NCBI GenBank assembly: GCA_035772405.1
Contig: JAYKKM010000439.1
Span: 1,297,001-1,361,000 of the forward strand
Direction of reading: 5' to 3'
Length of the DNA: 64,000 nucleotides
Source of the DNA: Chrysogorgia sp. JL179-B06
Taxonomy: Eukaryota > Cnidaria > Anthozoa > Scleralcyonacea > Chrysogorgiidae
This document shows, in pieces, positions 24,017 to 53,589 of this stretch (its first letter is position 1; each line of letters opens with the position of its first letter). Position numbers and translations under genes: made by a program. A model generated the notes under the pieces. The model worked only from the letters and a program-made list of their open reading frames with translations. It was not told where the DNA came from and searched no databases.

Positions 24017-24051
24017 ACCGGTCCACTTTAAGAGTTTTAACCATGAGTTAA
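22736..24051 (+). pseudogene. PIN/FEN1-like nuclease relative, right-arm copy
   Basis: The N-terminal frame (22736-23044) has IPKHFKIIYLVCDTYKTNSI, like the first acidic motif and Lys region of XPG/FEN nucleases. A small deletion and frameshift near 22960-23000 join it to the main 348-codon frame (from 23005). That frame has HEEADTKLVAFVRA (compare EAEA..), STSGDIDIIALFLGHDF (compare TED.D), and LLGMHACSGNDYVSSF (compare LLGCDY..). It then continues through FVCSLYGHPRLTSVNDARRK and NLRYHIMRSNYVAFLFRQ. A late indel after FECDEL changes the tail. The PIN-like assignment is mine, from the order and spacing of acidic motifs. It resembles Asteroid-like proteins but no name is certain. Confidence 0.6.
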
Positions 24052-27000
24052 TCGAGTTATACAAAGAGCTATAAAGAGCATTAAAAAGTAAGATACAATT
24101 ATTGTAGGGAATATGCTTATATTCAGACTATAGATCTTTCTATACCTATTTATATAGTCCACTTGGTGCCACTGATATGCTTGGTCTTTTGCCACTTATC
24201 CTTGGCCTGTATCCTCCGTGTACATTAACGCAGTGGTTGTGATATACGTCTTGAGATACTTGCACGGGTTTAAAAGTATCATTCCTAATCTGTTCTTCAT
24301 AATCCAAAGAAGTAGGTTTTCAGCTCCGTACACGTTCATCGAGTAATCCAACTCTGACAGAACTATAGATCTGTTAAAGGTTTCGTGAACACAAATACAT
24401 AGGCGTCGTAGGAACCACCGTTTCCTGCAGTTTCACAATATCCAATTTTCCCCGCCATACTATACATCTCAGTTCCTGACGGCCATGCCTCGTCAAGCCA
24501 TAAAAGACGTTTTTTGCGACCAGAAATGTCTTGTTAAGTTGGTCAAACCCCTCGCCAATATAAATATCCATGTTCATAACAGACACGATACAATTTTGAA
24601 GTTTCTCGCTGGCATACCCAAACAGATCTCGGTATTTCGGCATCGTGTCGATGCGTTGTACACGAATTTTCTGTTTGTTACGAAAATTGAGATCGGTTAG
24701 CCTTTTTTGAGCGGACTCCTGATTTATAAGAAGATGGACATTTGTTACTAAAGGATTGTCAAGATTTCGTTGTAACGTTTCTTCCAGTTCTGCTTGTCTT
24801 TCCCACAGTTTGTCATGTCCAACCCTTCGTCTTGTCTTTCCCACTGTTTGCCGGGTTATCCTTCCAAGGACTCTCGACCATCAATGGGTAGTTTGCATGT
24901 AATGACATGAATACCCTCATTTGCACCAATGATATTTGTTACCAAAGGTTGTCTCTCCCACAGATTGTCTTGTCCCACAGTTCGTCTTGTCTTTCCCACT
25001 GCTCATGGTTATGCTTCTCGACCACCAATGGATAGTTTGTAATGACATGAATACCCTCCTTTACCGGCATGATATTTATGAGTCTACTTATATGAACACA
25101 AAAGAAGTGCAGATAGAAGTAGCGACTACAATTATCGCGCAATCACGGCGAATTTTCCTGCCCATTCTGAAATTATTTGTCCCCTTGCAAGCGAGGGTGC
25201 TAATGTTGAAGGGGGTAGTGGGTCACTGCATATAGCCTAGTTCATACATGATCATAAGTATAAGGACAAAACAAAAGAATGAAGTCAAGCCTGTGACATA
25301 ATGATCGTGATACTAAGGTATTAGTATAAGATGATAGTCCAAGCCTGAGACAAGAGTAGAACAAAACAAAAGACGAAACAAAGATAAATTATCGTTGTTT
25401 TGTTATCGTAAGTCCCAGAGAAGTCATGCTTTGTTTTCGTATTAATCTTGTGCTTATGTCGCTCGTGTGAACGCTAGAACGGTCTCGTAAGCAGGCGTAA
25501 AGTGTCGTAATAGCCGAGCGCTTTACGAATAGCAAATTCGGTGCAGTTTCGGTTTTTATATTTTTACCTAATGTTTGCGTGTTTGGATGGCCTGATCCAA
25601 ACATGGTGGGATGTTATCATGCTGCGAGAGTTGACAAAAGCGATTTTTTAAGTGGACCCATAGTATGATAAATATACACTTTCTTCCTTCATAAGCCTTT
25701 TGTCGCATTCTGTTTATACTAATTATTAGTTGATTATTTCATGAATGATCAAGGGTAGTGCACAATTGGTTTCTAATGCTGTATAGCTGTGTGACAAGTA
25801 ATTTCTTTCTTAGTGATTCATGGTAGAAACAACAGTAGACTTCCCCACTATTAATATGTTACTGCCCCTAAAATTAAAAAGCTCAATCAATATTTAATCG
25901 ATTTCAATTCTGAAAACAGATTTTGAATTACCGAATTTAATACATAACATATGTGTCTATTATATTACGAGAACGTATGACACACCATTCGTAAGATAAA
26001 CTATAGAGCTATGAAAAAGTACTACATCACTTGTTTAAAAACATTTAATCGCTACTCGGAGTTTCACGCTTCTCGCGAAGCAATCATCAGGCAACTGCCT
26101 GCAACTATAACTAATTACAATAAAAATTCACTGAGAATATTTCTAGAACGTGCGCTTGCTACTGTATGTAATTATATATGTTTATGTTTAAGTGATGGAG
26201 TGTTCAACAATTAAAAACTTCTTCGAATTTCTACAGCTCAACATCAGACCATTTCTTTTATTAAATGTGGCCATATTAGGTTTACATACTAGCTGTAAAA
26301 TAATTTATTTTTTTAATAATAAGTTGTATTTCTTGTTAACGTTTGTGTATGACCTAGCTTGTTTTACTTTTCGCCATTTGATATCATATATATATATACT
26401 TAATGTTCTGATATCATTTATCGAAGACGAAAAGAAGTCGCATATCGGTCTGAGTGAAGGTCTCAGGACGTTAATATTAATTCACAAAAGACTGATATGA
26501 CTACCACTCCCATTCCCTCGAGCGTACTTAACTCAAATCTTCATACATCAAAAGACTGCACTAACATCCTTGAGAACAATGCCTTATCAATTAAATCCTA
26601 CAGAATCCTACAGTGTGTATGAAAAACCCGGAACGCTTAGAAAATTAATTAGTATTCTTTTAAAACAAGTTATTGTTGTAGTTTGAAAGACCTATAGACA
26701 CCTTTGAGCTATAGGAAGAGAAAAATCTTTCAAATACTTTCACCATGCATATACACTTCAAGTTATCTTACTTTCCCAGGTGTAGAGACTTTTTACGCAT
26801 CCGTGGCTCAGAATTAGTGTCTAGGGCTTTCAAACTACTACAATAGGTTGTTTGAAAAGAATATTAATTTATTTTTTATGGTTTATTTATAAATGAGCCA
26901 GGCTGAGTTTAGTCACGAAAATCTTTCCTTGACCTAAAAAGATCATTTGAATGAACTTTATGTTCTTTTTACAGCTAAACTAAGCATTAAGTTCTGATTT

Positions 27001-29199: not shown

Positions 29200-29520
29200 T
29201 TTCCTGCCTAGGCATATGCACATGAGATCCAGTCACACGCCAAGTTAGTGATTTGATTTCATAAATAACTCTGCGATTGGTGGCATTTTGAATTTTCATC
29301 ATGCTACGCGGACTTGCAAGATGCGCTTTTCTAGAAAAATAAAAGTTTTTCACCCTGCTAATTTATATTAACATAATATGTCTTGTTCGGGAAATTTAAA
29401 AGCACTATTATAAAGGCCGATTTATTTGGCTTTCGCAACAGTTACAGTATGGTTATTTCTAGAGATATCAATAGAACAAAGAGGCATCGCTTAGCGAAGT
29501 CAGGCAAATTTCACCTAACT
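29200..29520 (-). repeat. relative of the nested TTAA MITE (39969-40414)
   Basis: Shares 'tttgatttcataaataactc', 'attttgaattttcatcatgc', 'cgggaaatttaaaagcac' and 'tttggctttcgcaacagtta' with 52010-52310 and, in reverse orientation and more diverged, with the MITE inserted at 39969. The conserved terminal CTCTTTCCCTACGG is not found here, so this copy lacks its ends. Confidence 0.6.
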
Positions 29521-29804
29521 TGACTCTAACAAACTGGTGACGTCCAGAAGCACAAAATACGAGAATAAAAACGTCATATCTCGAAGAGCAGATATCGTAA
29601 AATTATTAACATTTCTAAACATAACACTAACACTTACATGAAGAAGATCTTTGATTTAGATAATCTTGACTATACAGTTAGTCCACTTTTAAGAGTTTTA
29701 ACCATGAGTTAATCGAGTTATATAAAGAGCTATAAAGAGCATTAATAAGTAAGATACGATTATTTTAGGGAATATGCTTATTCAGACTATAGATCTTGCT
29801 ATAC

Positions 29805-30805
29805 CTATTTATATAGTCCACTTGGTGCCACTGATATGCTTGGTCTTTTGCCACTTATCCTTTGCCTGTATCCTCCGTGTACATTAACGCAGTGGTTGTG
29901 ATACGTCTTGAGATACTTGCACGGGTTTAAAAGTATCATTCCTAATCCGTTCTTCATAATCCAAAGAAGTACGTTCTCAGCTCCGTACACGTTCATCAAG
30001 TAATCCAACTTTGACAGAACTAGATCTGTTAAAGGTTTCGTGAACACAAATACATAGGCGTCGTAGGAACCACCGTTTCCTGTTTCACAATATCCAATTT
30101 TCCCCGCCATACTACATCTCAGTTCCTGACGGCCATTCCTCGTCAATCCATAAAAGACGTTTTTTGCGACCAGAAATGTCTTGTTAAGTTGGTCAAACCC
30201 CTCGCCAATATAAATATCCATGTTCATAACAGACACGATACAATTTTGAAGTTTCTCGCTGGCATACCCAAACAGATCTCGGTATTTCGGCATCGTGTCG
30301 ATGCGTTGTACACGAATTTTCTGTTTGTTACGAAATTGCAGATCGGTTAGCCTTTTTTGAGCGGACTCCTGATTTATAAGAAGATGGACATTTGTTACTA
30401 AAGGATTGTCAAGATTTCGTTGTAACGTTTCTTCCAGTTCTGCTTGTCTTTCCCACAGTTTGTCATGTCCAACCCTTCGTCTTGTCTTTCCCACTGTTTG
30501 GTTAATATCCTTCCAAGGACTCTCGACCATCAATGGGTAGTTTGTAATGACATGAATTCCCTCATTTGCACGAATGATATTTGTTACCAAAGGTTGTCTC
30601 TCCCACAGATTGTCTTGTCTCACAGTTCGTCTTATCTTTCCCACTGCTTGGTTATGCTTCTCGACCACCAATGGATAGTTTGTAATGACATGAATCCCTC
30701 CTTTACCGGCATGATATTTATGAGTCTACTTATGAACACAAAAGAAGTGCAGATAGAAGTAGCGACTACAATTATCGCGAAATCACGGCGAATTTTCCTG
30801 CCCAT
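29805..30805 (-). pseudogene. type II membrane glycosyltransferase-like gene, copy II
   Basis: An open frame of 288 codons (30671-29805) covers most of the protein: two EGIHVITNYPLMVE-type repeats, LWERQAELEETLQRNLDNP, MPKYRDLFGYASEK, MNMDIYIGEGFDQLNKTF, SYDAYVFVFTKPLTDLVL and LLNPCKYLKTYHNHCVNVHG. The signal-anchor part upstream (start equivalent at 30805) is out of frame after a one-base change in the first repeat near 30695. If translated from the internal Met it would be soluble. Flanks match copy I and the duplicate boundary. Confidence 0.8.
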
Positions 30806-31150
30806 TCTGAAATTATTTGTCCCCTTGCAAGCGAGGGTGCTAATGTTGAAGGGGGTAGTGGGTCACTGCATATAGCCTAGTTCATACATGATCATAAGTA
30901 TAAGGACAAAACAAAAGAATGAAGTCAAGCCTGTGACATAATGATCGTGATAAGCTAAGTATAAGATCATAGTCCAAGCCTGAGACAAGAGTAGAACAAA
31001 ACAAAAGAGGAAACAAAGATAAATTCTCGTTGTTTTGTTATCGCAAGTCCCAGAGAAGTCATGCTTTGTTTTCGTATTAATCTTGTGCTTATGTCGCTCG
31101 TGTGAACCAGGATTCTGGCCTGCTAGAACGGTCTCGTCAGCAGGCGTAAA

Positions 31151-31182: not shown

Positions 31183-34100
31183 AACTTTATTTCAATACGG
31201 AGTCCAATTCACAACAAAAGTGCTCTTCCTTGGAGCCGTATACATAAGTAACTAACTAAGATTTTTTTTAAAAATAACTATATACAAAGAGAGACAAAAA
31301 TTAAGTATCAGTAATCAACTTCACACTCGAGATTTAAAAATAGATAAAGAAGGAGCTAATGTTTTTTCCCGAGGGAAGCTATTCCAAAGAACAGCACCCC
31401 TGTAGGTAAAACTTTTTTTAAGTGCCTCGGATTGAGGTCGAGGAACAAAAATGTTATAATTTGAGCCACGTAGATTGTGATTATGTATTGCATTTGTTTG
31501 AACAAATTTCTGGAAAAGATATTCAGGAGCCTAATTATTAAAGGTTTTATACATTGTAACACCTAGGTGCTGAGACCGTCTCTCCTCAAGAGTGGACCAA
31601 CCTAACTCAAACAATAAATCAACTGATCTAATAGAATAATCAGCTCCTAGAATAATTCTGGCTGCACGAGATTGAAGTTGTTCAAGTTTAAGAGCTAGGC
31701 CTCTACCCAAATTACCCCATACACCATCACAATTGTCAAATTGTGTTAGAATTAAAGATTTATAAATAAGAATCAAAGTTGATTGGGGCAAATAAGGTTT
31801 TTAAGTCTTCTTAACGCACCGATAGCTTTGGCAACTTTGGAAACAACATTCGAGATATGCACGTCCCAGGAAAGAACTTCATCAAGTTCAATCCCTAAGC
31901 ATTTGTAACTCTTTTCTCTCATTATTTTGTGACCATTTATAGCAATGTTAGGATCTTCAGGAATCGAGGCCAGTTTACACCAAGAACCAATGAACATACA
32001 TTTGGTTTTTAGAACATTTAAGCTAAGTTTGTTAGCATCAAGCCATTGTTTTAGAACTATCAAATCATTGTTCATTTCTGAGTAAAGTTGCTCAGGATTT
32101 TCATTAGCATATGTTAAGGTGGTATCATCAGCATATAAACGACCCTCAGAAGAGAGTTTACAATTTGGAAGGTCATTTATATACAGTAAAAATAACAAAG
32201 GGCCTAAAATAGAACCCTATGGGACGCCACATGTTATTTTAGAACTTTCGGACGGGATGTTATTTACAATCGTAATTTGCGATCTATGAGAGAGATAATT
32301 TCGAAATAAATCAACTGTCTGTCCCCGAAAACCATAACATGCTAATTTTTTTATAAGAATTTCGTGGTCAATAGTGTCAAACGCTTTCTTTAAATCTACA
32401 AACAAAACAGCATTTATCAATCCATTGTCCATATTTTTGTACCAGCTATCTGTTGCATCAAGAAGCGCCGTTAAGGTAGAATGTAGAGGCCTAAATCCCG
32501 ACTGTAATTTAGAGAATAAGTCATTATCACTCAAGTATCTGTATGTTTGATTGAAAATAGCCTTTTCAAAAATTTTAGCAACAACAGATAAAATAGAAAT
32601 AGGCCTGTAGTTACCTGGATTTGTCTTAGAAAATTCTTTATAAATAGGAATAACTTTAGCTTTTTTCCAATCACAAGGAATAATGCCATAAGTTATTACA
32701 AGATTGATTATATGTGTCAGTGATTCAATCGTATCCGAAATACTAGCTTTTAGGAGAAATGCTGGAATTTCATCAAGCCCACAGGCTTTGGCGGATGGAA
32801 GACTATTTACAATATTTAGAATATCACTTATGGTAACTTGATCCAATTCAAACGAACAATTGGACACTTGGATATCACCGTAATTTACTGGAGAAAAATC
32901 AGAAATTTTGGAAGCTAGGTCAGGACCAATTTCAGTAAAATATTTATTGAAAGCGTTGCTTACCTCTTTTGGATCACTGATCACCTGATCGTTAATCACC
33001 AATTTAGAAATAGGAGTCGACTTGTTTTTATTAGAAAGCAAGGAATTAATTCCTTTCCAGGTATTTTTAGTGTTACCCTCATTATCGTTAAAAAAGGAGC
33101 AATAGTGCAATCTCTTGCTTTCTCTTATGATATTATTAACCTGATTTTTAGCATTTTTATAATTTTGCCAATCAGATAATTGACTAGTGATAATAGCAAT
33201 TCTCTTTAATCGATCCCTCTCCCACGTCAATCTCTTGATCTCAGGGGTGAGCCATGGTGCTGATGAGGATCTAATTCTTTTTTTCTTAATTGGTTCATGA
33301 TTGTTTGCAATGAGCTGAAAAAGTTTCTTCCAATTTTTCCATGCATCAACAGGATCATTTATATCCATAATCCTGTCCCAAAGGAGCTAACTTCATATCT
33401 CTTAAGAAATCATCAATGTTGAAATGTTTGTATTGTCGACTTCGAATAATTATTGGTTTAGATTTGGGACTATAGTGTTTTCTAGCAGCATAAATTAAAC
33501 TATGATCACTGATGCCAACATGGGACACACCCGATGACAAGAATTTTTTCGGTTCATTAGTAAGAAAGAGATCGATTAGAGTAGAAGTTGATGAAGTGAT
33601 ACGTGTTGGATCAAGAATAAGCTGAACATATTGATAGAAATCACAGAGTTCAATCAAATGCTTTGTACAATTATCAACTGGATCTGCTTTCCAGTTGCAA
33701 TTAAAATCTCCAATTATGTTAGACTCAATGTTTAATGCATCAATTTTTTCCAGTATAACCTGGAACCTCTCAAATAATTCGACAGAAGCTTTAGGTGGTC
33801 TATACCAGGTTGATACTTGAAAAGGTTTGATTTTGGGTTTATTGATTTCAATACATAAAAACTCAAGGGAGTCATCGAGAAGATCATCTTTGATTGTAAA
33901 ATCGATAGTATCTCGAATAAACATCGCTACTCCACCACCATTTCTGGTTCTATCACGTCTTATAATCGAATAATTAGGAATAGCGATAATATTATCGCTT
34001 ATAGTTTGATCAAGACGAGTTTCGTTTAGTATAAGGATATCCAGATTTGCATTTTGCAGATTTAAACGAATTTCATCGATGTATTTAAAAAGGCTGGCAA

Positions 34101-34472: not shown

Positions 34473-35513
34473 TGTCGTAATAGCCGAGCGCTTTACGAAT
34501 AGGAAATTCGGGGCAGTTTCGGTTTTTATATTTAATGAAATACCTAATGTTTGCGTGTTTGGATGGTCTGCTGCGAGAGTTGAGAAAAGCGATTTTTTAA
34601 GTGGACCCATAGTATGATAAATATACACTTTCTTCCTTCATAAGCCTTTTGTCGCATTCTGTTTATACTAATTATTAGTTGATTATTTCATGAATGATCA
34701 AGGGTAGTGCACAATTGGTTTCTAATGCTGTATAGCTGTGTGACAAGTAATTTCTTTCTTAGTGATTCATGGTAGAAACAACACTAGACTTCCCCACTAT
34801 TAATCTGTTAACTGCCCCAAAAATTAAAAAGCTCGATCAATATTTAATCGATTTCATTTCTGAAAACAGATTTGGAATTACCGAATTTAATACATAACAT
34901 ATGTGTCTCTTATATTACGAGAACGTACGAAATATGAATGCATCGTTCGAGAAATATTCTCAGTGAATTTTTATTGTAATTAGTTATAGTTGCAGGCAGT
35001 TGCCTGATGATTGCTTCGCGAGAAGCGTGAAACTCCGAGTAGCGATTAAATGTTTTTAAACAAGTGATCTAGTACTTATTCATAGCTCTAGTTTATCTTA
35101 CGAATGGTGTGTGGTGCGCTCGCTGCTAATTGCTATGTAATTATATATGTTTATGTTTAAGTGATGGAGTGTTCAACAATTAAAAACTTCTTCGAATTTC
35201 TACAGCTCAACATCAGTCCATTTCTTTTATTAAGTGTGGCCATATTAGGTTTACATACTGTAAAATAATTTTCCATATTTCATAAGTTGTATTTCTTGTT
35301 AAAGTACATATGCGAGAATTTTCATTTTTATTCTAAAAATCGGCCGTTCCGAGACGATTTCAACGGTATATCACATTCTTTCAACGGATGAAAACTTTTC
35401 GAGATATTTAGCGTCAAACACGAGTATTTCAAAACATGGCCGGGAGAAAAGAGGCTGAGTACGAATAACACTGGTGACGTCAAATCGGGACAGGAAGTCA
35501 TGGCGTCTCTTAA

Positions 35514-36861
35514 ACACAGAGCGAGCGCATAAGTAGAGGCTGAGTAGCTCAGCCAAACACATCTGATTGGTCCGCACGACTAATTTTACTTCCGGTGCAT
35601 ACTTTGACTAAAGAGTGAAGGCTTGTTTACTTGTTTTAATATTAAAAAATTGGACTTTCCCCTTGTTTAAACGTCGAGTTTGTCATTTTTCAAGTGTAAT
35701 ACATCATTACTCTTTCAATAAACTAAGGTAAGCGAAAAATACGGAAAATTCGGGAAAACACACAGGAAAACACAATTACAAAAACATCCTGTATACAACA
35801 AAAACATCCCGTAATATACCGTATAGGCTATAGCTTTCGAACTCTCATGGACACAGACAATGTATGAGAATATAGTGCAGGTCTTTTGTGTTGTATTTTC
35901 TAAAATGTCATTTTGAAAATGGAAACATGTTTTAGACGAATGACATACAAGTGTACACTGTACATACGTGCGGAAAAATGTCGATTACACCAGAAGCAAA
36001 AACAGTTTTATAGTGACGAAAGATTTCGGAAACAAACTTTACTTAGATAAATAACCATAGACAACAAACAAGACTGTCTGGTAAGTTAAAAACAAGCAGT
36101 AAAAGACATCGTGATTACTTTACCATGCAACGAAATGCAGCCAGAAAAGTCGATCATGAATATTCAACCATGAAGGACACCAGTTATTTTTAGTTTTATA
36201 GGTAATATTTTCATCAAGAATCGGGTAGCCCTTACCAGTTTAGGTATAAATTATTGGAGAAACTTAACGAACAATAATTGTGTAGAAATCATAGGGAGCA
36301 ACAACAAAAAGATGTATTCATTTCCCCCAAAAAACTAGGTCTAGACAGTGCAAATATATGTTTAGCGTCTCACCGTTATTGTTGTTGAATGCAGATGATA
36401 TCCTTCGCTTTTTTATTCATATATCCACACTTGTAGTTGTAAGACAGTTCTAACACCAATAATGTTCGGATAATGAATATCTCCATTAATGTCTAAACAT
36501 TACTTCCTAATGACGACTTGACGAGACAAACAACTTTGTTTTTGCACGACGCTGGACAGTGAAAATACTAAAATATGGAACCCGCTGTCTGGTGAAAGCC
36601 AGACAACTGCTGCTAAAAAGTTCTAAATTTAAATTGTTTGACTTGCAAAAAGGCTTTCTATGTTTTGGCAATATATAATAAAGACACTAGTGCTTTTTTA
36701 ATTCATATATGGGTAATTGAGGGTAACAAATTTCTGAATGAAGGAGGATAATCCATGCACTTCACTCACACACTCATTGCCGACTTGACAGTTGCCATTT
36801 AATTTCAATTTTCGTGCGTAAGACGGGGGGGAGATCTCCCTTTTATGCGCTCGCTCTGTGT
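35514..36861. mobile_element. nested TTAA element in the left arm (1348 bp)
   Basis: Terminal inverted repeats of 19 bp (ACACAGAGCGAGCGCATAA at the left, its inverse at 36843-36861) are flanked by TTAA at 35510-35513 and 36862-36865. Removing it rejoins the left arm so that it parallels the right arm. No frame above about 90 codons inside appears real, so it is non-autonomous. Confidence 0.85.
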
Positions 36862-36927
36862 TTAAGAAACAATAACGTTTAGAGAGAAAGACGGCGAGAA
36901 ATTGCGTTTTGCGGTGTTTTCTAGCAA

Positions 36928-37079
36928 TGTTTTCGACTGAAACTTTCTCCAAAGAAAGTTCAACATCAGTTGACGCCATTTACGATCGAATCGATGATTT
37001 CGAGCTCAAATTAGAGGAATTAGACTTGCATTCAAATGGACCTTCAATTCCAACGTCTGTTGTTTTACTTGGGTAGATT
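36928..37079 (+). pseudogene. terminal-repeat duplicate of the P2X7-ballast gene's 5' end
   Basis: The frame MFSTETFSKESS...LKLEELDLHSNGPS parallels the start of the opposite gene (MSSSQSYSEESS...VEVEELEPSNGQS) at the mirrored position. It stops after 50 codons. It shows that the inverted repeats extend into coding DNA and that the two arms have diverged since. Confidence 0.6.
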
Positions 37080-38061
37080 TTGTGAAGCATAAACGCGCAA
37101 AATGGGAGCCTTCCATGTCAAGCTGTGTGTGCTCCAAACATTTTAAGCCAGATGATTTTAGCCGAAATATTTGTTTGCCTGGACAAGAAACCTACATCCC
37201 ATGGCTAAAAAAGGATAACATTGGAATAGTCTCTTTTCCGTCCGTATTTACAATAGCCGATCGCGAAGAACCTTCTGCTTCGGGAAGGACGACAAGAGCA
37301 ACCAGACGCAAGGTATAAATTAATATCTCCTTCCATAATATATTGTTTTCGCATACACTGACAAAATGTTACAATTATTGGATCAGAATCTGGTATTTCT
37401 GGTATTTGGTTATACGATGAATATATACATGTATGATACATGTCATATAATTACCATCAACAGATACCATAGACATGTTCAGGATGTTTTATTATCAATA
37501 AGTAACATGGAGACTGACTGGAGAGATACATCAGAAACATATTTATCTAGAAAAAGTCATTTTAATACAGGTACTATATGCAAAAATGATGTTGCATAAG
37601 TTCTGATGACTATATTGATTTTATTTTTCAGGTTATGTTCAAGAAATTTATGAAACTTATCTTGATGCCCAAAAGAATAAAATGCTTAAAAATGAAATGA
37701 AAGAAATAAAGGAAATGACCCCCGAACCCATGAATACCATACTATCCAAGCAACCTAGGGATGATTGCAAGGAAAGCAATGGTAACAAAACCAACATTTA
37801 TTGCAAAAAAGCCTGGGAACGAGGTTTGCTTGAAATTCAGCTTATTCTTCATTATTTACACAATCAATTTTTTTTATGCCAAGGGCTTTCACCAAAGTAT
37901 TTTTATCTATCAACAAGTGTGTTTACAATTACCCTTATTTTATAGTATCACAAGTAGAGGAAACACAAAGCAATGAACGAGCAAAGCCACATTGTAGAGT
38001 ATGTCACCATCCCATGAAGGGCCACAAGGATGTCATAGATTTTCAAAAAAAAAACAAATAG
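37058..38061 (+). CDS. THAP-like protein with C-terminal Cys/His knuckle (5' part missing)
   Basis: Exons: about 37058-37312, 37483-37570, 37632-37781 and 37955-38061, with GT-AG borders and agreeing phases. Exon 1 contains WVDFVKHKRAKWEPSMSSC, VCSKHFKPDDF and SFPSVF, the second half of a THAP finger (Trp, C-x2-H and the AVPTIF-like end). The first Cys pair would lie in an upstream exon, which appears to be lost at the terminal-repeat boundary. The middle exons are charged and probably helical. The last exon ends with CRVCHHPMKGHKD, a C-x2-C-H...H knuckle. About 200 residues are visible, with no catalytic domain. THAP fingers bind specific DNA, so a role in recognising the element's ends is plausible but unproven. 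Confidence 0.6.
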
Positions 38062-38767
38062 TTTAAAATAAGCCTAATTTTACTTTTGATTATATTTATT
38101 TATAATTAATAATATTTAAATGACTAAAAAGCTTTTTGTTTCTATAAAAGAATATTATGTCACCTTTCGAATTTAATTTGATTGTCATTATTTTGTACTT
38201 GTAAGGGTTATACAGTATTTAATAATATGAGGTTAATTGAAATACTATTTCAAATAAATAAGTTGGTATTTATTAAAACAAAAAGCTTTTTAGTTGACAT
38301 TATGATCACTAAATAATGGTAAACAATTTATAATCAGCAAAATAGTATCAACATCCATATTGGAAACTCAGACTACGATTAAACAAGGTTTTAGTCATCA
38401 GGAATGCTCATATCGCTGGGAGTGAATAATTCCTGATGACTAACTGACTTGGGTCTGATTTGTTTGATTAGGATCGTACTGTTTCTTAAAAACTTGCTTG
38501 AAATACATTTAAAATTAATAGTTCTAGTTCAGTTTAGGTGCATATGGCACCCTAAACTCTAAAGCTAATTTAAATCTTCTTTGGCAGCCTGGCTCATAAA
38601 CCTCAGTGCCCTTTATAGACCTTTTTATACTATTACCATTTTACACATATACTCGGTCTTATTCTGTGCTATTACCATTATGCTGATTATTGACAGATTA
38701 CTGTATATTAATTATTATATCAATATTATGGGTATTCTCAATCCTTTATGCTTTTATTCAGTCTATA

Positions 38768-39902
38768 TCAGTTCGAGTTATCTTCCTCATAACCTGTAAA
38801 TACATCTTCATTTGTCTTAAATGTCTTTCCAATGGCATCATAGACACATGAGGGCAACGGTATTCTCAGCTTACCCAAAGTGCCATAAACAAGTTGGGAA
38901 AACTCTCGATATGACACTGATCGTAAGAACCTAAAACAGTTATAAAAACTTGTGTCACTATACTTTTTTTAAATAGTAAGTACTAGCAACTATACATTTA
39001 GTATTAATAAAATGGTTTCTCAGAGTAATCAGTTGTTTGTTTACAACAAAATATGTCAATTTCAAACCCTCAAGATAAATTTCTTCCCAACTTTTAATGA
39101 GAATGTTATACTAAAAAAGTTAGATGGGAAACCCTTGCCATTAAGAAGAGGCTTTGGTTCAGAAGTAAATTAGCAGAGTAAAGTTGTACTCAATAAAGAG
39201 ATACGAGATAAATTATTACAAAACTTACGCTTCCTCTGAACCACTAATACGATATCTTCGATGATCTTTAGTCCTGTATTTCGATGCCGATAATCTTATT
39301 GACCACTTCTCCAAGCAATTCACGCGAAATCCTGGGTGAAGTGTTACACACGAAGGTGGTGGGTGTTTCAACGTCTTGCAGGACTTCATCAGAACTCAAT
39401 GCTCTAACACATCTTTCTATTTCTTGACAACACGCTTCATAATATATACGTTTTGTAGTAAACCTATAGCACAGTTGCCACATTTGCACCTATATTAAAC
39501 GCAAAATAAGACATAAAAACATAGTTTAAGCGTTTTTATGTAGTATCATGACATTGAGTATTGACAATAATATTTACATGTAAATTGAAAACATTCAACG
39601 CTTACCATTGACTCGTCGGAACAATGCCATCTAATCGTTGTTGTAGTGTCTCAACGCGAATCTTCTCTACTTCTTTGTTCTTCATATTCCCGAACCCATT
39701 CTTCATTGGCGATGGGTTCGTCATCATATGGGAGAACAACGGCAGCGTCTGTAAGTCTGTTACTCTCACTCTGTCTTCCCGAGTCCCGACAAGGTGACTG
39801 TCCATTGGAAGGCTCTAATTCTTCCACTTCGACGTCGTAATCATCTAAATCAGAGTCAGCTGATCCTGAACTTTCTTCCGAATAGGATTGTGAAGAAGAC
39901 AT
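38768..39902 (-). pseudogene. P2X7 C-terminal 'ballast'-like domain protein
   Basis: Exons 39902-39606, 39489-39229 and 38930-38768 have GT-AG introns. Exon 1 gives an acidic Ser-rich leader (MSSSQSYSEESSG), PYDDEPIANEEW, and ends ...GIVPTSQW. The junction makes WCKCGNC. Exon 2 continues with EACCQEIERC and CVTLHPGFRVNCLEKW. Exon 3 has YREFSQLVYGTLGK, PLPSCVYDAIGKTF and stops shortly after FTGYEED. The order WCxCGxC, CCxE, C..HPGF..NCL, YR.F, PSC..D.I...F is that of the intracellular zinc-binding region of P2X7 receptors. No channel part is present. Three one-base shifts (near 39665, 39470 and 39340) make this copy inactive. It converges on the THAP gene. Confidence 0.75.
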
Positions 39903-39968
39903 GGTTACAAGACACCGATAAAACGCAATTTCACGCCGTCTTTCTCTCTAAACGCTACTGTTTCTTAA

Positions 39969-40414
39969 CTCTTTCCCTACGGCTGAAAAACATCAAAAAT
40001 TGAACGACCACGTTGTTCTATTGATATCTCTTGAAATAACGATAACTGTTGCGAAAGCTATACATTTTCTGGAAGCCCAATAAACCGGCTTTTACTTGTT
40101 CTTTTAAATTTCCCGAACAAAACACATTATGTTAATATAAATTAGCATTAATTATCATAAATCAGGTTGAAAAATTTACATTTTTCCAGAAAAGGCCATC
40201 TTGCACGCCGGCATAGCATCTTGAAAACTCAAAATGCCACCAATCGTAGAGTTGTTTATGAAATCAAATCAAACTTGGCGTGTGCGTGGATTTCATGTTC
40301 CTGGCGCTTGTCGAATTTCAATTTTTAATCTTGCATTACCGTGTGCCGTGTTTTTCGATTGACGACTTTACGGGTCATCAACGACCCTTTTTAACTGCGC
40401 CCGTAGGGAAAGAG
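39969..40414. mobile_element. nested TTAA MITE in the right arm (446 bp)
   Basis: Terminal repeats CTCTTTCCCTACGG and the inverse are flanked by TTAA (39965-39968 and 40415-40418). This is the same TTAA of the parent terminal repeat that was hit in the left arm by a different element. The interior is related to the blocks at 29200-29520 and 52010-52310. Confidence 0.85.
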
Positions 40415-40656
40415 TTAAGAGACGCCATTACTTCCTGTCCCGATTTGACGTCATCAGTGTAATTCGTACTCAGCCTCTTTTCTCCCGGCCATGTTTTGAA
40501 AAAACAATATTTTTCCATGTTTGACGCTAAATATCTCGAAAAGTTTTCATCCGTTGAAAGAATGTGATATACCGTTGAAATCGTCTCGGAACGGCCGATT
40601 CTTAGAATAAAAATGAAAATTCTCGCATATGCACTTTAACGTTTGTATATGACCTA

Positions 40657-43095: not shown

Positions 43096-43513
43096 TACTT
43101 AATGTTCTGACATCATCTATCGAAGACGAAAAGAAGTCGCACATCGGTCTGAGTGAAGGTCTCAGGACGTTAATATTAATTCACAAAAGACTGATATGAC
43201 TACCACTCCCATTCCCTCGAGCGTACTTAACTCAAATCTTCATACGTCAAAAGACTGCACTAACATCCTTGAGAACAATGCCTTATCAATTAAATCCTAC
43301 AGAATCCTACGGTGTGTATAAAAAACCCGGAACGCTTAGAAAATTAATTAGTATTCTTTTAAAACAAGTTATTGTTGTAGTTTGAAAGCCCTAGACACCT
43401 TTGAGCTATAGGAAGAGAAAAATCTTTTAAATACTTTCACCATGCATATACACTTCAAGTTATCTTACTTTCCCAGGTGTAGAGACTTTTTACTCATCCG
43501 TGGCTCAGAATTA

Positions 43514-43620
43514 GGCTGCGTTTACAGAGCAAAAGTAATCGGATTCGTATTGTTTTTTATTCCCATGAGGATGCAAAACAATATGAATCCGGATACTTTT
43601 GCTCTAGTATAAACGCAGCC
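43514..43620. mobile_element. 107-bp hairpin MITE with TTA duplication
   Basis: Near-complete inverted repeat from GGCTGCGTTTACA to its inverse, flanked by TTA (43511-43513 and 43621-43623). The empty site 'cagaattagtgtctaggg' is at about 26810. A 3-bp TWA duplication fits PIF/Harbinger. Confidence 0.85.
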
Positions 43621-44211
43621 TTAGTGTCTAGGGCTTTCAAACTACCACAATAGGTTGTTTGAAAAGAACATTAATTAATTTTTTTAGGATTTATTTATAT
43701 ATGAGCCAGGCTGAGTTGTGTCACGAAAATCTTTCCTTGACCTAAAAAGATCATTTGAATGAACTTTATGTTCTTTTTACAGCTAAACTAAGCAAGTTCT
43801 GATTTGAAATATCATTTTAGATGTCTATAGTAGCCATGATAACAACTTTGTTAAGAGAATCAGTCTGGCTAAGATGGCTAGCCCAGCTTATATAAATAGC
43901 ACTTAAGGGTTCCGTTTTTTTTATACACACTATATATATCAATCCGAACGAAAATATTCATCTGACAAGAATAACAAGTATGACGTAACGAATTATGAAA
44001 TGAATAAATTACAAAATTACGAAAATGAGGATCTAAAGCAACAGAATGATGCCTTGAAAAAGAAATATGAACGGATTAATCTGAAAGATGTAACAATGTT
44101 ATTTATAGAACCAAAACTCAGACAAACATACCAATATTGAATCTCATGGGATTCCTAAATAGCCATTTTCTATTGTTGGGAATGCAACTAATTGACCAAG
44201 TATATATATAG

Positions 44212-44606
44212 GTTATAGCACCGTATATATAGCACCGTATAATATAGCACCGTATAATATATATTGCTGCATATAGGTTACAGCACCGTATATATAGCAC
44301 CGTATAATATATATTGCTGCATATAGGTTATAGCACCGTATAATATATATTGTTGTATATAGGTTATGGCACCGTATATATAGCACCGTATATATAGCAC
44401 CGTATAATATATATTGCTGTATATAGGTTATGGCACCATATATATATAGCACCGTATAATATATATTGCTGTATAGAGGTTATAGCACCGTATATATATA
44501 GCACCGTATAATATATATTGCTGTATATAGGTTATGGCACCGTATATATAGCACCGTATATATAGCACCGTATAATATATATTGCTGTATATAGGTTATA
44601 GCACCG
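44212..44606. repeat. minisatellite of GCACCGTATAATATAT-type units
   Basis: About eight units made of 'tatagcaccgtatatata', 'gcaccgtataatatatattg' and 'ctgtataggtta'-like blocks, with variable copy number of the short pieces. The frames read across it are repeat artefacts. Confidence 0.85.
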
Positions 44607-44756
44607 ATTTTCGGGATATTGGTGATATATATCGGCTAATAATAATAATTACAGTTCTTGGCATTGCCGTGCATTTCGCAAAGGCTCAATGCGTTTACAA
44701 GGTGAAATTACAATATGTTAAAATACAACAAACTAAAAATTATTCCGTACTGAATT

Positions 44757-45130
44757 TTGATAACTTACTTTGAATTTCTAATATTATATTTATCATTTAT
44801 AGACCTGGAGCGAGGGGAATTCGACGAAATATTAGGATCTATAAATGATATATTATACCAAAACAATATTGAATGCTGTCTTGAAACGTCTAGAAACGTC
44901 TTGAAACGTCTTGTTGTTCCTCCATTGTTTACAGGAGCGTCTTGGTTTACGCGCGAGTACTGCGTACGAGCGGGGTATTCGAACTCGAATTCCCCGCTGA
45001 TGACGTAATCAGCGGGGAATTCGAGGTTAAATTAACTGGTCACGTGGTACAAATCTAGCTCTATGATTGGACAATTTATAGTTGATATATTCTAATATTA
45101 TATAAACAGCATAGCTAGCATATGGTACTT
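44757..45130. other. no gene recognised; short palindrome
   Basis: Contains a perfect inverted repeat around 44985-45020 ('gaattccccgctgatgacg' mirrored) and three copies of 'gaaacgtct' near 44882-44915. It lies upstream of the glycosyltransferase-like gene and could hold its promoter, but no element is identifiable. Confidence 0.3.
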
Positions 45131-45218
45131 GTTTACATCACTGGATAATAATTCACGCAGCGCGATTGCTGGCTTTGCGGGAATTGCGGCTTTGAAAGGG
45201 GGGACAAATAATTTCAGA

Positions 45219-46220
45219 ATGGGCTGGAAAATTCGCCGTTATTTCGCGATAATTGTAGTCGCTACTTCTATCTGCACTTCTTTTGTGATCATAAGTAGAC
45301 TCAGATATCAGACTTCAAATATCATGCCTGCAAAGGAGGGTATTCATGTGATTACAAACTACCCATTGATGGTGGAAAAAGATAACCAAACAGTGGGAAA
45401 GACAAGACGAACTGTGGGACAAGACAAACTGTTGGAAAGACAACCTTTGGTAACAAATATCATGCCTGCAAAGGAAGGTATTCATGTCATTACAAACTAC
45501 CCATTGATGGTCGAGAGTCCTTGGAAGGATAACCAAACAGTGGGAAATAAAGCAGACAAACTGTGGGAAAGACAAGCAGAACTGGAAGAAACGTTACAAC
45601 GAAATCTTGACAATCCTTTAGTAACAAATGTCCATCTTCTTATAAATCAGGAGTCCGCTCAAAAAAGGCTAAGCGATCTCCATTTTCGTAACAAACAGAA
45701 AATTCGTGTACAACGCATCGACACGATGCCCAAATACCGAGATCTGTTTGGGTATGCCAGCGAGAAACTTCAAAATTGTATCGTGTCTGTTATGAACATG
45801 GATATTTATATTGGCGAGGGGTTTGATCAACTTAACAAGACATTTCTGGTCGCAAAAAACGTCGTTTATGGTTTGACGAGGCATGGACGTCAGGAACTGA
45901 GATGTAGTATGGCGGGGAAAATTGGATATTGTGAAACAGGGAAAGGTCATTCCATAGACGCCTATGTATTTGTCTTCACGAAACCTTTAACAGATCTAGT
46001 TCTGTCAGAATTGGATTACTTCATGAACGTGTACGGAGCTGAGAACGTACTTCTTTGGATTATGAAGAACAGATTAGGAATGAAACTTTTGAACCCGTGC
46101 AAGTATCTCAAGATGTATCACAACCACTGCGTTAATGTACATGGAGGATACAGGCCAAGGATAAACAGTCATGGCAAAAGACCAAGTGCATTAGTGCCAC
46201 CAAGTGGACTATATCAATAG
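45219..46220 (+). CDS. putative type II membrane glycosyltransferase-like protein, copy III (intact)
   Basis: I choose ATG 45219 because MGWKIRRY directly precedes a 17-residue hydrophobic stretch (FAIIVVATSICTSFVII), a good signal anchor. An upstream frame to 45129 also exists. The lumenal part begins with two near-identical blocks (IMPAKEGIHVITNYPLMVE) separated by short linkers rich in QTVGKTR, then a coiled segment (LWERQAELEETLQRNL). The conserved region runs NVHLLINQE, MPKYRDLFGYASEKL, MNMDIYIGEGFDQLNKTF, LTRHGRQELRC, DAYVFVFTKPL, YGAENVLLWIM and LNPCKYLKMYHNHC. The pattern 'xDIYI...ALTR...DxxxF...NPCK...HxHC' resembles a widespread putative GT-A glycosyltransferase-like family; M/NxDIY would supply the DxD-like site. 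About 333 residues, single exon. Function inferred only. Confidence 0.65.
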   Translation: MGWKIRRYFAIIVVATSICTSFVIISRLRYQTSNIMPAKEGIHVITNYPLMVEKDNQTVGKTRRTVGQDKLLERQPLVTNIMPAKEGIHVITNYPLMVESPWKDNQTVGNKADKLWERQAELEETLQRNLDNPLVTNVHLLINQESAQKRLSDLHFRNKQKIRVQRIDTMPKYRDLFGYASEKLQNCIVSVMNMDIYIGEGFDQLNKTFLVAKNVVYGLTRHGRQELRCSMAGKIGYCETGKGHSIDAYVFVFTKPLTDLVLSELDYFMNVYGAENVLLWIMKNRLGMKLLNPCKYLKMYHNHCVNVHGGYRPRINSHGKRPSALVPPSGLYQ

Positions 46221-46567
46221 GTAACAGCATCTATAGTCTGAATAAATATATTCCCTACAATAATTGTATCTTACTTTTTAATGCTCTTTATAGCTCTATA
46301 ACTCGTTCAACTCATGGTTAAAACTCTTAAAAGTGGACTAACTGTATAGTGAAGATTATTTAAATCAAAGACCTTCTTCATGCAAGTGTTAGTGTTATAT
46401 TTAGAAATGTTAATAATTTTACGATATCTTCTCTTGTACCCGAGATATGACGTTTTTTCCCTCGTATTTTGTGCATTTGGACGTCACCAGTTTGTTAGTG
46501 TCAAGTTTGGAGAAATTTGGCTGTGTCCCCTCGCAACCGAGATCGCGAAGGCTATGGGAGGATGATT

Positions 46568-46735
46568 AAACGGACTGATTAACCGTTTAGAATTTTTAAT
46601 GTACCGTTTAAACGCTTTGGCCAAACCTTACCGTTTTAAACGCTTTATCTAAAACCGTTTGAACGCTTTACCTTGAAATCGTTTAAACGCTTTGCCTAAA
46701 CCGTTTTTAAACCGTTTTTTGCCTAAACTTAACTT
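46568..46735. repeat. degenerate tandem repeat of ACCGTTTAAACGCTTT
   Basis: About seven imperfect units of 22-26 bp ('accgtttaaacgctttg', 'ccgttttaaacgcttt', 'ccgtttgaacgcttt') in direct orientation. GTTTAAAC makes each unit partly palindromic. Confidence 0.7.
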
Positions 46736-48005
46736 AGTTTAGCTGTAAAAAGAACATAAAGTTCATTCAAATGATCTTTTTAGGTCAAGGAAAGATTTTC
46801 GTGACACAACTCAGCCTGGCTCGTATATAAATAAACCATAAAAACATTAATTAATATTCTTTTCAAACAACATTGTAGTAGTTTGAAAGCCCTAAACACT
46901 TTTGACCCACGGATGCGTATTAAATACATGCATGCAGTGAAAGTATTTAAAGTATTTAAAAGCTTTTTCTCTTCCTGTGGTTCAGAGGTTTCTAGGGCTG
47001 TATCCATATACATCCCGTGAATTTTTAATTATCTATTCAATTCAATTGCTCGGCCATACTCACTTCTTTAAATGTCTACGGTCTACCTACAAAAACTTTC
47101 TTCCCCTAGAGAAAACGTTGGCAGAAAACCTTTTAAAATTTGAACTAGATCAGTTAGATATACCTCGAACGTCGGCTCTTAGCCATGTATCCGGCTATAA
47201 GCCTCCGTTCTCGTTATCTAACTCTCATTTAATTCACAAAAGATTAATATCACCAACTTGAAGTACTTAGGAAAGAATCCTTGACTAATATAGTGTGTAT
47301 AAAAAAACCGGTACCCTTAGATAATTAATTAGTATTCTTTTAAAACAACCTATTGTAGTAGGTTGAAAGCCCCGGGCTGTTACATGCCGTTAATTTTTAA
47401 TTATCTATTGAATACAATTAATCAACAACGCGTTTCCCTGGAGACTATTCAAATCCCCCCAGCTTTAGGGATGTATAGGATATACAGGGTGTATAAAAAA
47501 AAGCGCAACGTCGGAATTTCCCAAGAAATCCACTTTGTTTTTATTAGCACAAAAGATTTTAGGCCTCTGGGAATTTAAAATAGCTTCTAATCGTATTCCA
47601 AGGGCATAACTGTCGAATTGCTAATGATAAACAACTTTTCATTAAATAAATGCATAAATTTCGATTCAATTCTGCTTTACGTGCTCGAGTTTGTAGTAAT
47701 TAGACAGTTATATGCCCCTGGAATACGATTACAAGCTATTTTAAATTCCCAGGGGCGAAAATCTTTTTTGTTTAAGAACACAGTGGATTTCTTGGGAAAT
47801 TCTGAGGTTGCGCTTTTTTTGATACACCTGTACAACCCTATAAAGAACAAAGAAAACCGACTAAAATTTGAACTAATAACGTCCTGAGACCTTCCACTCA
47901 GACCTATGTGCGACTTCTTTTCGTCTTCGATAGATGATATCAGAACATTAAGTATATATGATATCAAATGGCGAAAAGTAAAACAAATTTTAACAAGAAA
48001 TGCAT
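46736..48005 (-). repeat. scattered inverted fragments of the segmental-duplication family
   Basis: 46740-46990 is an inverted relative of 43490-43800 ('aaagaacataaagttcattc', 'gtcaaggaaagattttcgtg'). 47878-48000 is an inverted relative of 26330-26470 ('cttcgatagatgatatcaga', 'caaatggcgaaaagtaaaac'). Between them a 160-bp block with 'tggaatacgattacaagc' occurs twice in opposite orientation (47590-47620 and 47705-47760). No gene is supported. Confidence 0.6.
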
Positions 48006-48652
48006 GAATTCTTGGTATTTGCCAACAAAATATGTTTATATGTAATGATTGCCATCTCACCTGTCCAATGTAAATAGTGCAATGAAAAGAAAACAGTACT
48101 GATAGTTCTTATAGAGGCCAGGATCCCACTTTTTCCGGATAACTTGCTTAGCCGAGCAACTTGCCTTCATATAAAGTACAACATCGCATTGCATGTTATC
48201 TATCAAGTTAATCAAGCCATTATCATATGCACAGGTAATAAATGGCCAATTAATTAAACAAGCAACTATTGAATATTACCCTTTAAAATTATTTAATTGA
48301 TTTTCACTCAAAAAATGACAGAATTGGATGATCAAGGCTGATAACAGGCAGAACTGGGTTAATATTTCATTTATTAAAAATATACTAACAGTAAGTCACT
48401 CAATTTGAGATATTTATTAACACCGTACACTGTATGAAATGGCAATATTAATTTTGGTGGGGCTAGTCATGATTCAGATACATTGTTGTACAAACAACCA
48501 TGCATAAATATATGTATAATATAATATTGCTAATAAATTCAGTAGAGCATCCACTACATGTAGATAAGAATGAAACATATGAGCAAGTTATACAATTTAA
48601 ACCAAACACAAAGATCGCAATGCAATAGTATCAATTATTGAATGAGGTTGAG

Positions 48653-48749
48653 CATGATATGAAAAATTATCCAGGCCGAAGTTTGTGTTATCTGCCGAAG
48701 CCGAAGGCGGATAACACAAACTGAGGCCTTGATAATAATTCATATCATG
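48653..48749. repeat. hairpin repeat
   Basis: The arms 'catgatatga...gtttgtgttatctgccg' and their inverse meet at 'aagccgaag'. It is a compact foldback of about 97 bp. Confidence 0.75.
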
Positions 48750-48780
48750 CGAAAACATTCGCGCGCGTTTTCGGTCTTCC

Positions 48781-48818
48781 CCCTGCCCCCCCCCCCCCCC
48801 CCCCCCATCCCCCCCCCA
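48781..48818. repeat. poly-C tract
   Basis: C-runs of about 21 and 9 bases. The poly-Gly reading frames across it are artefacts. Confidence 0.9.
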
Positions 48819-48856
48819 TCTCCGTGCACCAGGTGACGTCAATCGTGCAAATTAAT

Positions 48857-49123
48857 GTCACAACTCCATATTTGGTAGGGCAATGAGTTGATATGACGAT
48901 TTCACCGTTGGCTGTTAGCCAATCAGCGATCACGAATTATTTTAAATAAATAATAATCTGGGTTATATACTCTCCGCAAAGTCAAAATGGTCGAAAACGA
49001 AAAAGCCAGTCTAATAACTGCGATTATTATTTATTTAAAATAATTCGTGATCGCTAATTGGCTAACAGCAAACGGTGAAATCGTTATATCAACTCATTGC
49101 CCTACCAAATATGGAGTTGTGAC
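48857..49123. mobile_element. foldback element with ~100-bp arms
   Basis: The left arm (48857-48948) and right arm (49023-49123) are inverted copies beginning GTCACAACTCCATATTTGG. The spacer ('gcaaagtcaaaatggtcg', 'aataactgcgatta') is also found at 27315-27365, which suggests a piece of that repeat was captured or hit. Confidence 0.7.
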
Positions 49124-49453
49124 AACATTGACCAGCTACAACATTGTTGTTTTCTCTAAGATACATATAATGCAAGTTTTTAAAATCATATTTCTACTTA
49201 AAACACCACCATGTATCTACAATTTGTGGTTATAATTGCATACCTACTACTCTAAGAGGATTGTGATCATGTTACATGTTGCAAGCACATTAATCTGCCA
49301 TATTGAAAGAGATGGCAGCTGTATATATTTTATACATGGTTCAGTTCTTGTTGTTACTATCTCCAGGCACCCATAACACATTCCAGGGCATATTGTATAT
49401 ATAAATTGATTCCCATCGATGTGGGGTCAACAATGACAAACAACTCGAACAAA

Positions 49454-49599
49454 TTTTATTGACTGTATGTTCGACCAAAAAGGTAATTTAAAAGAAAACC
49501 GAACTTTTGCACTTAAGCATCTACCTTCAGTGTATAAAATGGTAAAATGAGCTTCTTTTAAATTACCTTGTTCGTTGTCGGAATATACAGTCAATAAAA
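49454..49599. mobile_element. 146-bp MITE
   Basis: Inverted ends TTTTATTGACTGTA and TACAGTCAATAAAA, with further pairing of 'ggtaatttaaaagaa' and 'ttcttttaaattacc'. No obvious target duplication. Confidence 0.7.
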
Positions 49600-49954
49600 T
49601 ATTAAATTATGCAGCAACATATCAATTCTCAATTGTAACTCGAAAATATTTTTTTCATATTTCACTAGTAGTTATACTTTATTTTAACACTGATAAGTAT
49701 GCAGGAAAATGCCAGCAGAAAATATGCAACCATAATGCAAAATAATTATCCAGTTCCAGTTCTGTGAATATATGGTTATTCTGGTCATCTCAGCCTCTAT
49801 CCATATACCTACTGTATCCTCAGATTGTGTAGTTCGGTACAGGTACATATTTTCCCCAGGTTGCCTGGGGGATAGTAACACCAAGAATTGAAGCACACTG
49901 CATACATGGTCCCCAGTGCCCAGACCGCGTCTGTCGAAGCCGGTTCGTCGTATG

Positions 49955-50100
49955 TAGATTTTGAACGCTATCTCGACCAATATTTACTCAATTTCAATTC
50001 TGAATACAGTTTTGGAATTACGGAGTCTACATATACATAACGTACGTGTCTCTTATATTACGAGAACGTGCATACCCTTCGTAAAAACGCGGTTTATGTA
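49955..50100. repeat. dispersed repeat family R1, copy 6
   Basis: Carries 'gtagattttgaacg', 'atttactcaatttcaattctg', 'tggaattacggagtct' and 'cccttcgtaaaaac' in the family order. Confidence 0.65.
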
Positions 50101-50119
50101 CTTAGAAATTATTCGGCAA

Positions 50120-50700
50120 TCAGCCAGCCCGGCCCAACCGCCTCGTCGTATATATCCTGCACGTTAGTGCCGTCCGTGTCTGCGTCCGGGCCAAATGATA
50201 AGGTCAGCGTTAAGATAAGGTCAATATTATGAAATGATAAGGTCAGCGTTAAGATGATCAATTTTCAATGTGTTTAGCATTGAACCAGACCCACACGATA
50301 ACAAGCTTTTTCTCGAGCTTTCACTTTGAAGTGGCGAAGCAGGCCATGATAACTGGTCATGATATGCAAACTCTAAGATGAATTACATATTATTATTCCA
50401 AATTCAGAAATATATTGTTTTCAAAATATGCAGATGATTATAATTTAGCATATAGCATGACCAAATGCCATGGCCAGCCGCCAACTGATAGCTCAGAGAC
50501 CCATGAGGAGCGATTATAGAATATCCGTCAACTTTTTAACTTAAATTTACTGACATAAATCAAGAATGTGAAATCGTATTTATTAATAACTTTTAGCTAA
50601 ACCTAGAGTAATGTAATTTTAAAGAACGAAGCAATTCTAGTATGACAATTCTAGTAGTACAACGTTTTTAAACAAGTGATCTACATGTAGCTTCGTAAGT
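50120..50700. other. no gene recognised
   Basis: Contains a 'aaatgataaggtcagcgtta' direct repeat (50194 and 50234). Otherwise unassigned AT-rich sequence leading to 'aaacaagtgatcta', which also precedes the TA tract at 29105. Confidence 0.35.
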
Positions 50701-50761
50701 AAATATATATATATATATGTGTGACTGTAAATAGCAGTTATCTTCATCCTGCTCATCAGCA

Positions 50762-50811
50762 CTAGCTACACTGATGAGGCCCAAAAGGCCGAAACGGTAC
50801 CGTCTGTATAG
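50762..50811 (+). ncRNA. type-I hammerhead ribozyme 2
   Basis: Core CTGATGA (50771-50777), stem II GGCC/GGCC with CAAAA loop (50778-50790), GAAA (50791-50794), minimal stem III CGGTACCG (50795-50802), T50803, and C50804 as the cleavage base. Stem I is TACA/TGTA continued by CTA/TAG across a two-base bulge. It is nearly identical to ribozyme 1 and again sits at the edge of a long (TA)n tract (50813-50902). Confidence 0.85.

Positions 50812-50812
<1 letters not shown>

Positions 50813-50902
<90 letters not shown>
50813..50902. repeat. (TA)n microsatellite
   Basis: About 45 TA units directly after hammerhead 2. Similar tracts occupy 50988-51067 and 51266-51350. Confidence 0.95.
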
Positions 50903-50904
<2 letters not shown>

Positions 50905-50907
<3 letters not shown>

Positions 50908-50985
50908 GAGTGCTGCGTAGACAGTGTTTTGAATATATAGCAAAGTGAAAAGGTGGTAAACTGCCAAGAATTTAGTGACGAGATA

Positions 50986-50986
<1 letters not shown>
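50905..50986 (+). repeat. direct repeat P, truncated copy
   Basis: Matches 51353-51436 ('agtagagtgctgcgtagaca', 'gccaagaatttagtgacgag') with few changes, then is cut at 'agatact' where a (TA)n tract begins instead of the hammerhead-like motif. Confidence 0.85.
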
Positions 50987-51067
<81 letters not shown>

Positions 51068-51071
<4 letters not shown>

Positions 51072-51198
51072 CGCTTACCTCAAAACTGGTCTGCTACAAC
51101 TTGTTTCATCTGTAAAAAGAATCTTCAGGCAGTTTTTGTTTTTTTTCTTTTTACAGATGAAACAAGTTGTAGCAGACCAGTTTTGAGGTAAGCGAAAA
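51068..51198. repeat. perfect 52-bp hairpin arms
   Basis: 51068-51119 and 51147-51198 are inverted copies over 52 bp ('cgcttacctcaaaactggtc' mirrored), with a 27-bp loop that ends in a T-run. It lies between (TA)n tracts and copies of repeat P. Confidence 0.85.
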
Positions 51199-51263
51199 TC
51201 TATTATTTGCTCTAACTATATGTTGTTGAGCACTCTTTGCATTTCGTAGACCAAAACCTACAC

Positions 51264-51352
<89 letters not shown>

Positions 51353-51355
<3 letters not shown>

Positions 51356-51476
51356 TAGAGTGCTGCGTAGACAGTGTTTTGAATATATAGCAAAGTGAAA
51401 TGGTGGTGAACTGCCAAGAATTTAGTGACGAGATACTGACGTTTCGAGCGGAGTCCTTCATCAGAGTAAGACGAGA
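51353..51476 (+). repeat. direct repeat P, full copy
   Basis: Same start as 50905 and continues through GACGTTTCG and TTCATCAG. The paired copies flanking hairpin and TA DNA resemble the tandem or pseudo-LTR arrangement of Penelope-like or retrozyme elements. No reverse transcriptase frame is present nearby. Confidence 0.6.
51434..51464 (-). ncRNA. hammerhead-like motif (uncertain)
   Basis: On the minus strand CTGATGA (51464-51458) is followed after 12 bases by GAAAC and GTC, with a minimal stem III as in Penelope-type hammerheads. The 12 bases (AGGACTCCGCTC) do not form a clean stem II closed by G-C. The copy may therefore be degenerate or the match may be partial. Confidence 0.35.
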
Positions 51477-53575: not shown

Positions 53576-53589
53576 TCTGAAATTATTTG

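Follow-up and report, generated by a model that had tools for sequence, protein, structure and literature searches.

What kind of mobile element places a THAP-derived gene opposite a gene resembling the cysteine-rich cytoplasmic (ballast) domain of P2X7 receptors, with both genes enclosed by long inverted repeats and TTAA? The question is raised by a stretch of 64,000 nucleotides from Chrysogorgia sp. JL179-B06 (assembly GCA_035772405.1, contig JAYKKM010000439.1, positions 1,297,001 to 1,361,000 of the forward strand), hereinafter the window, in which positions 35303-40635 had been described in an earlier note, made from the sequence alone, as a gene-carrying TTAA transposon. This element is very probably a broken DNA transposon, likely non-autonomous and related to the Kol0 lineage of Kolobok, that contains the remains of a probable THAP transposase gene and of a second gene, KolX. 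It is denoted only a likely non-autonomous relative, and not a tested member of Kol0, because it has no recognizable DDE domain. The structure was read from one copy, within the window.

As described by Kojima and Bao (2022; PMC9587614), Kol0 Kolobok transposons, which use TTAA, encode a transposase and a second protein, KolX, that resembles the P2X7 ballast, and P2X7 is proposed to derive from the fusion of a P2X4-like gene with KolX. The same source gives 5'-RR and YY-3' as the Kolobok termini, relates the P2X7 ballast to nanor, and reports a protein similar to the end of KolX in a few piggyBac families. The THAP domain is found in Kolobok transposases, and the XKol elements of Xenopus have AG ends and TTAA (PMC6004289). 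The ballast domain has been traced across animals (Rump et al., 2020; PMC7016195), including one tick protein in which a THAP-type domain (printed TAHP) precedes the ballast domain; the string "transpos" is absent from the available text of that paper.

Boundaries of the element

TTAA target duplications flank the element at 35299-35302 and 40636-40639. Immediately inside them lie the outer inverted repeats, arm A (35303-35509, plus strand, 207 bp, beginning 5'-AGTACATATGCG) and arm A' (40419-40635, minus strand, 217 bp), which align in inverted orientation with 200 identities, 7 mismatches and 10 gap positions, so that the boundaries proposed in the earlier note hold. Toward its inner end, arm A contains CRE-like and ETS-like motifs together with ATGGCG, and the same cluster recurs in arm A'. 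The flanks joined over one TTAA match positions 26165-26366 (181 identities, 9 mismatches, 17 gap positions); because they align there over a single TTAA (26336-26339), this locus represents a copy of the flanking repeat without the element. The empty site reported previously at 26336 is accordingly genuine, although it is a paralogous copy and not an allele. Thus, the 4-bp TTAA duplication that characterizes Kolobok is found at 35299 and 40636, with a single TTAA at 26336, and the termini, AG...CT, conform to the 5'-RR/YY-3' rule.

The P2X7-like gene

The spliced gene on the minus strand (38768-39902) consists of exon 1 (39606-39902), with one frame change inside, exon 2 (39229-39489), with two frame changes inside and the motifs CKCGNC, CCQEIERC and HPGFRVNCLEKWS, and the open exon 3 (38768-38930), which contains RIPLPSCVYDAI. 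All four blocks on which the similarity to P2X7 had been based, WCKCGNC, CCQE, HPGF and PSCVYDAI, are encoded in this gene, and profile searches link it to the P2X7 cytoplasmic ballast family (PF20478), as anticipated. Among named proteins, its nearest relatives come from octocorals (51-56% identity), which suggests an anthozoan source. The gene is KolX-like by virtue of its homology to P2X7-like proteins and not of a comparison with the published KolX sequences. A Foldseek search with the P0001 model returned 19 rows, of which the top 4 were P2X7 and the other 15 glutathione transferases, none of them significant. The 75 pattern matches obtained with the KolX profile in viral contigs include no relative.

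The THAP-derived gene

The gene on the plus strand, convergent with KolX, starts with an exon of the KolX type (36927-37058), in a frame that differs from that of the THAP remnant downstream. The remnant (37070-37312; WVDFVKHKRAKWEP...CSKHF...) is the rear half of a THAP domain, from which the front half and the first cysteine pair are missing; the match (Pfam PF05485, 4.2e-5) covers only profile positions 30-62 of 87, so that the complete C2CH zinc site of the family is absent. Two more exons are predicted, at 37632-37781 and at 37946-38061, the last with a knuckle-like CRVCHHPMKGHK, and neither has a family match above the cut-off. Everything ahead of WVDFV is replaced by the KolX-type exon in another frame. 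Together with its leader, this exon is related in inverted orientation to the first exon of KolX (36862-37041 versus 39800-39968, ~74% alike). In relatives P0009-P0014 (14 of the 81 candidates passed in all), the THAP domain begins at MPSRCVV and possesses both cysteine pairs. Inclusion of the plus-strand first exon in an intact THAP gene was dropped on the strength of these relatives, which start THAP at their own MPSRCVV, although they are mechanical gene calls.

The interval contains no stop-free stretch of at least 110 amino acids, and no match to a DDE domain was obtained with 18 shorter stretches (none from the two inserted blocks, B and D, described below) or with two stitched proteins, in agreement with the earlier report that this domain is not seen; the DDD/E transposase with the C/DxxH signature typical of autonomous Kolobok members was likewise not found. 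Because the front of the THAP domain is replaced by a KolX-type exon, no long frame remains and no DDE domain was found, the plus-strand gene, the left one of the element, is a rearranged, chimeric remnant. It probably was a transposase gene, by analogy with the THAP domain of Kolobok transposases (PMC6004289). Of the two convergent spliced genes initially described, the convergence of THAP-derived and KolX sequence stands, whereas their integrity does not, given the three frame changes in KolX and the loss of the THAP front; similarly, the THAP/zinc-knuckle gene is confirmed as a partial THAP domain on the plus strand followed by a knuckle-like motif in the last exon, but lacks the first THAP half.

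Inner TTAA sites and additional insertions

The earlier note missed that the interval contains further TTAA sites and insertions. The sites lie at 35510, 36862, 39965 and 40415, each exactly at the edge of an inverted repeat, and divide the interval into A (207 bp), B (1348 bp), C (3099 bp), D (446 bp) and A' (217 bp). Because of this exact placement, 35514-36861 and 39969-40414 appear to be extra TTAA-bounded insertions, one adjoining each arm. Block B (between TTAA 35510 and 36862) has identical inverted ends of 19 bp, ACACAGAGCGAGCGCATAA, and a longest stop-free stretch of 89 amino acids; block D (between TTAA 39965 and 40415) has identical inverted ends of 14 bp, CTCTTTCCCTACGG, and its interior is ~76% like 29220-29479 and ~72% like 52006-52254. 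In each arm, the only TTAA is the one at the inner edge. Block C (36866-39964), which contains both genes, is bounded by inverted ends of 45 bp that agree at 42 positions: the left inner repeat (36866-36910, plus strand, 5'-GAAACAATAACG) directly follows TTAA 36862 and the right one (39920-39964, minus strand) directly precedes TTAA 39965. Taken alone, block C has GA...TC termini (GAAACA...TGTTTC), which are also of the RR/YY type. Ends of piggyBac elements combine TTAA with pyrimidine-rich 5' ends; the starts of blocks D and B, inspected for such ends, are CTCTTT and ACACAG, respectively. Comparison of blocks A, B, C and D with each other yielded nothing of note (best E 0.033).

When pairs of TTAA with 14-bp inverted ends (at most one mismatch) 100-6000 bp apart were counted, six were found in the window, whereas 20 random sequences generated by resampling its dinucleotide steps each had none, a lenient control because such sequences do not contain the other repeats of the window. 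Three of the six pairs are the outer ends, block B and block D, and the other three lie elsewhere in this repeat-rich window; the ends of block C, with 2 mismatches in 14, fall outside the count.

Origin of the element and alternative interpretations

The TTAA duplications, the AG...CT ends and the convergent arrangement of THAP-derived sequence and KolX are more readily reconciled with the published Kol0 type than with an unexplained gene carrier. The parent would have been an autonomous two-gene Kolobok whose transposase bound the element through its THAP domain and cut and pasted it at TTAA, and both genes would have been driven by the same promoter, one copy in each terminal repeat. The present copy would then have lost the DDE part, and the start of the left gene would have been overwritten by a KolX-side end, for example, through faulty gap repair. 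Blocks B and D would be other TTAA transposons that inserted at the single TTAA of each arm. From the sequence, we favor the view that arms A and A' are the terminal repeats of the same element as block C because the only two CRE-ETS-ATGGCG clusters in the window, which we take to be promoter-like from the motifs they resemble, lie one in each arm, point inward and, with B and D left out, are ~100 bp from each start codon.

Several observations weigh against this interpretation. The first-exon regions are only ~74% alike compared with ~97% for the arms, and the promoter motifs were picked after seeing the sequence, with no random control; it is possible that the arms come from one element and block C from another. 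In the stitched plus-gene query, the THAP score is 0.0041, below the curated cut-off. The DDE domain was not found, with it unchecked whether Pfam includes a model that catches the Kolobok DDE, and because of this the identification of the plus-strand gene as a transposase gene relies on its THAP part and its position. Only 2 of 57 protein candidates passed in the search for a full-length THAP-DDE relative, and both have a THAP match only. As for KolX, its pieces searched one by one in Pfam gave no match (5 of 5), the stitched protein gave nothing up to E 1 against PDB in a single-sequence phmmer search, and the gene alone is no proof of Kolobok because KolX-like proteins also occur in the few piggyBac families mentioned above (PMC9587614).

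The most substantial competing explanation differs from the Kolobok interpretation only in the boundaries, and our assessment of it, as possible although rather doubtful, applies to the boundaries: block C would be the whole Kolobok remnant and would have entered, at its central TTAA, an independent palindromic miniature inverted-repeat transposable element (MITE; A-TTAA-A') of 428 bp, with B and D added subsequently at the TTAA sites on either side of C. Indeed, A-TTAA-A' is a near-perfect palindrome centered on TTAA, its alignment with the reverse complement of itself showing 404 identities, 14 mismatches and 20 gap positions, and C begins and ends at TTAA with inverted ends of its own of the RR/YY type. 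However, only 61-62 bp would separate the ends of C from each ATG, leaving scant room for promoters when the arms contain inward-pointing promoter-like clusters; three insertions at one spot would be required instead of two; and the GA ends are less similar than AG to those of Xenopus Kolobok. An intact KolX in the animal, with the frame changes arising from errors of sequencing or assembly, is unlikely: one of the changes adjoins a TA-rich run, but the plus-strand gene is rearranged as well, beyond what base errors explain. That the locus is a functional TTAA element mobilized by a foreign transposase and retaining the THAP and P2X7-like genes for functions of its own appears highly improbable. 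The two convergent genes have plausible splice sites, no DDE domain was found, and the insertions and deletions that separate the two first exons add up to net multiples of three, but KolX has three frame changes and the THAP finger lacks the first cysteine pair and is read in a frame other than that of the first exon, whereas relatives have the complete domain. Of the earlier suggestion of dependence on another transposase or a gene-carrying, non-autonomous type, the likely non-autonomous status is retained, and the unexplained carrier gives way to a Kol0 relative with both genes broken.

Under the Kolobok interpretation, a more general scheme can be envisaged, although we consider it quite improbable, in which the terminal repeats of this family comprise a promoter and a first coding exon common to both genes, which would let their starts swap, and the one TTAA kept in each arm acts as a landing site at which other TTAA transposons insert time and again, giving rise to composite TTAA islands.

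Relationship to known elements

Compared with Kol0 Kolobok (PMC9587614), the element shares the TTAA duplications, the purine-purine start and a KolX protein similar to the P2X7 ballast, as well as, by comparison with Kolobok transposases in general (PMC6004289), a THAP-derived partner gene; it differs in that no DDE domain was found, both genes are broken, the left gene starts with a KolX-type exon and two further TTAA-bounded insertions are present. XKol of Xenopus (PMC6004289) has in common with it the AG ends, TTAA and, in its transposase, THAP, but the full-length XKol copies listed in that source carry transposase coding sequence, which the present copy does not. With the P2X7 ballast (PF20478) and nanor, KolX shares the WC.CGNC and CC blocks and a C-terminal P.C block; unlike P2X7, it is a free-standing transposon protein, with no channel part in the frame read.

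The pairing of THAP with the P2X7 ballast is not new, the link between that ballast and Kol0 transposons having been published in 2022 (PMC9587614). Searches of the literature found no paper combining octocoral and Kolobok; KolX together with Kolobok was found only in PMC9587614, and P2X7 with Kolobok in the same paper and, by title listing alone, in a review, whereas nothing on point emerged for TTAA, nested and MITE, judged from the listing alone. The idea that mobility of a TTAA transposon supplied the receptor domain is sound, as a transposon origin would explain it, and is already in print (PMC9587614). The element is therefore a further example that fits the published claim that the P2X7 ballast began as a transposon protein, without contributing, as a broken copy, a new mechanism to that history. 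The nested TTAA insertions also call for caution, in that a stretch with TTAA and long repeats at its bounds is not necessarily one element.

Other repeats in the window

A repeat of up to 1.6 kb is present in four copies (29224-30824, 24021-25503, 45174-46523 and 52012-53620), which show 89-95% similarity over the compared stretches; it has internal repeats and an open frame that reaches 408 amino acids. One of these frames (52583-53806), scanned against Pfam, gave no match. Two of the copies, those at 29224 and 52012, lie next to sequence similar to the interior of block D. The other three pairs from the TTAA count, 47575-47741, 43099-47948 and 46410-52391, whose 14-bp inverted ends have no or one mismatch, are possible TTAA elements, the last of them joining two inverted copies of the 1.6-kb repeat. 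Positions 21555-22716 and 22879-24015 form a large inverted repeat (~90%) of one open frame, for which no Pfam match was obtained (22966-24048). Finally, three reverse transcriptase frames (Pfam RVT_1; 32220-33386, 57763-58590 and 62478-63977) are probably remains of non-LTR (long terminal repeat) retrotransposons.
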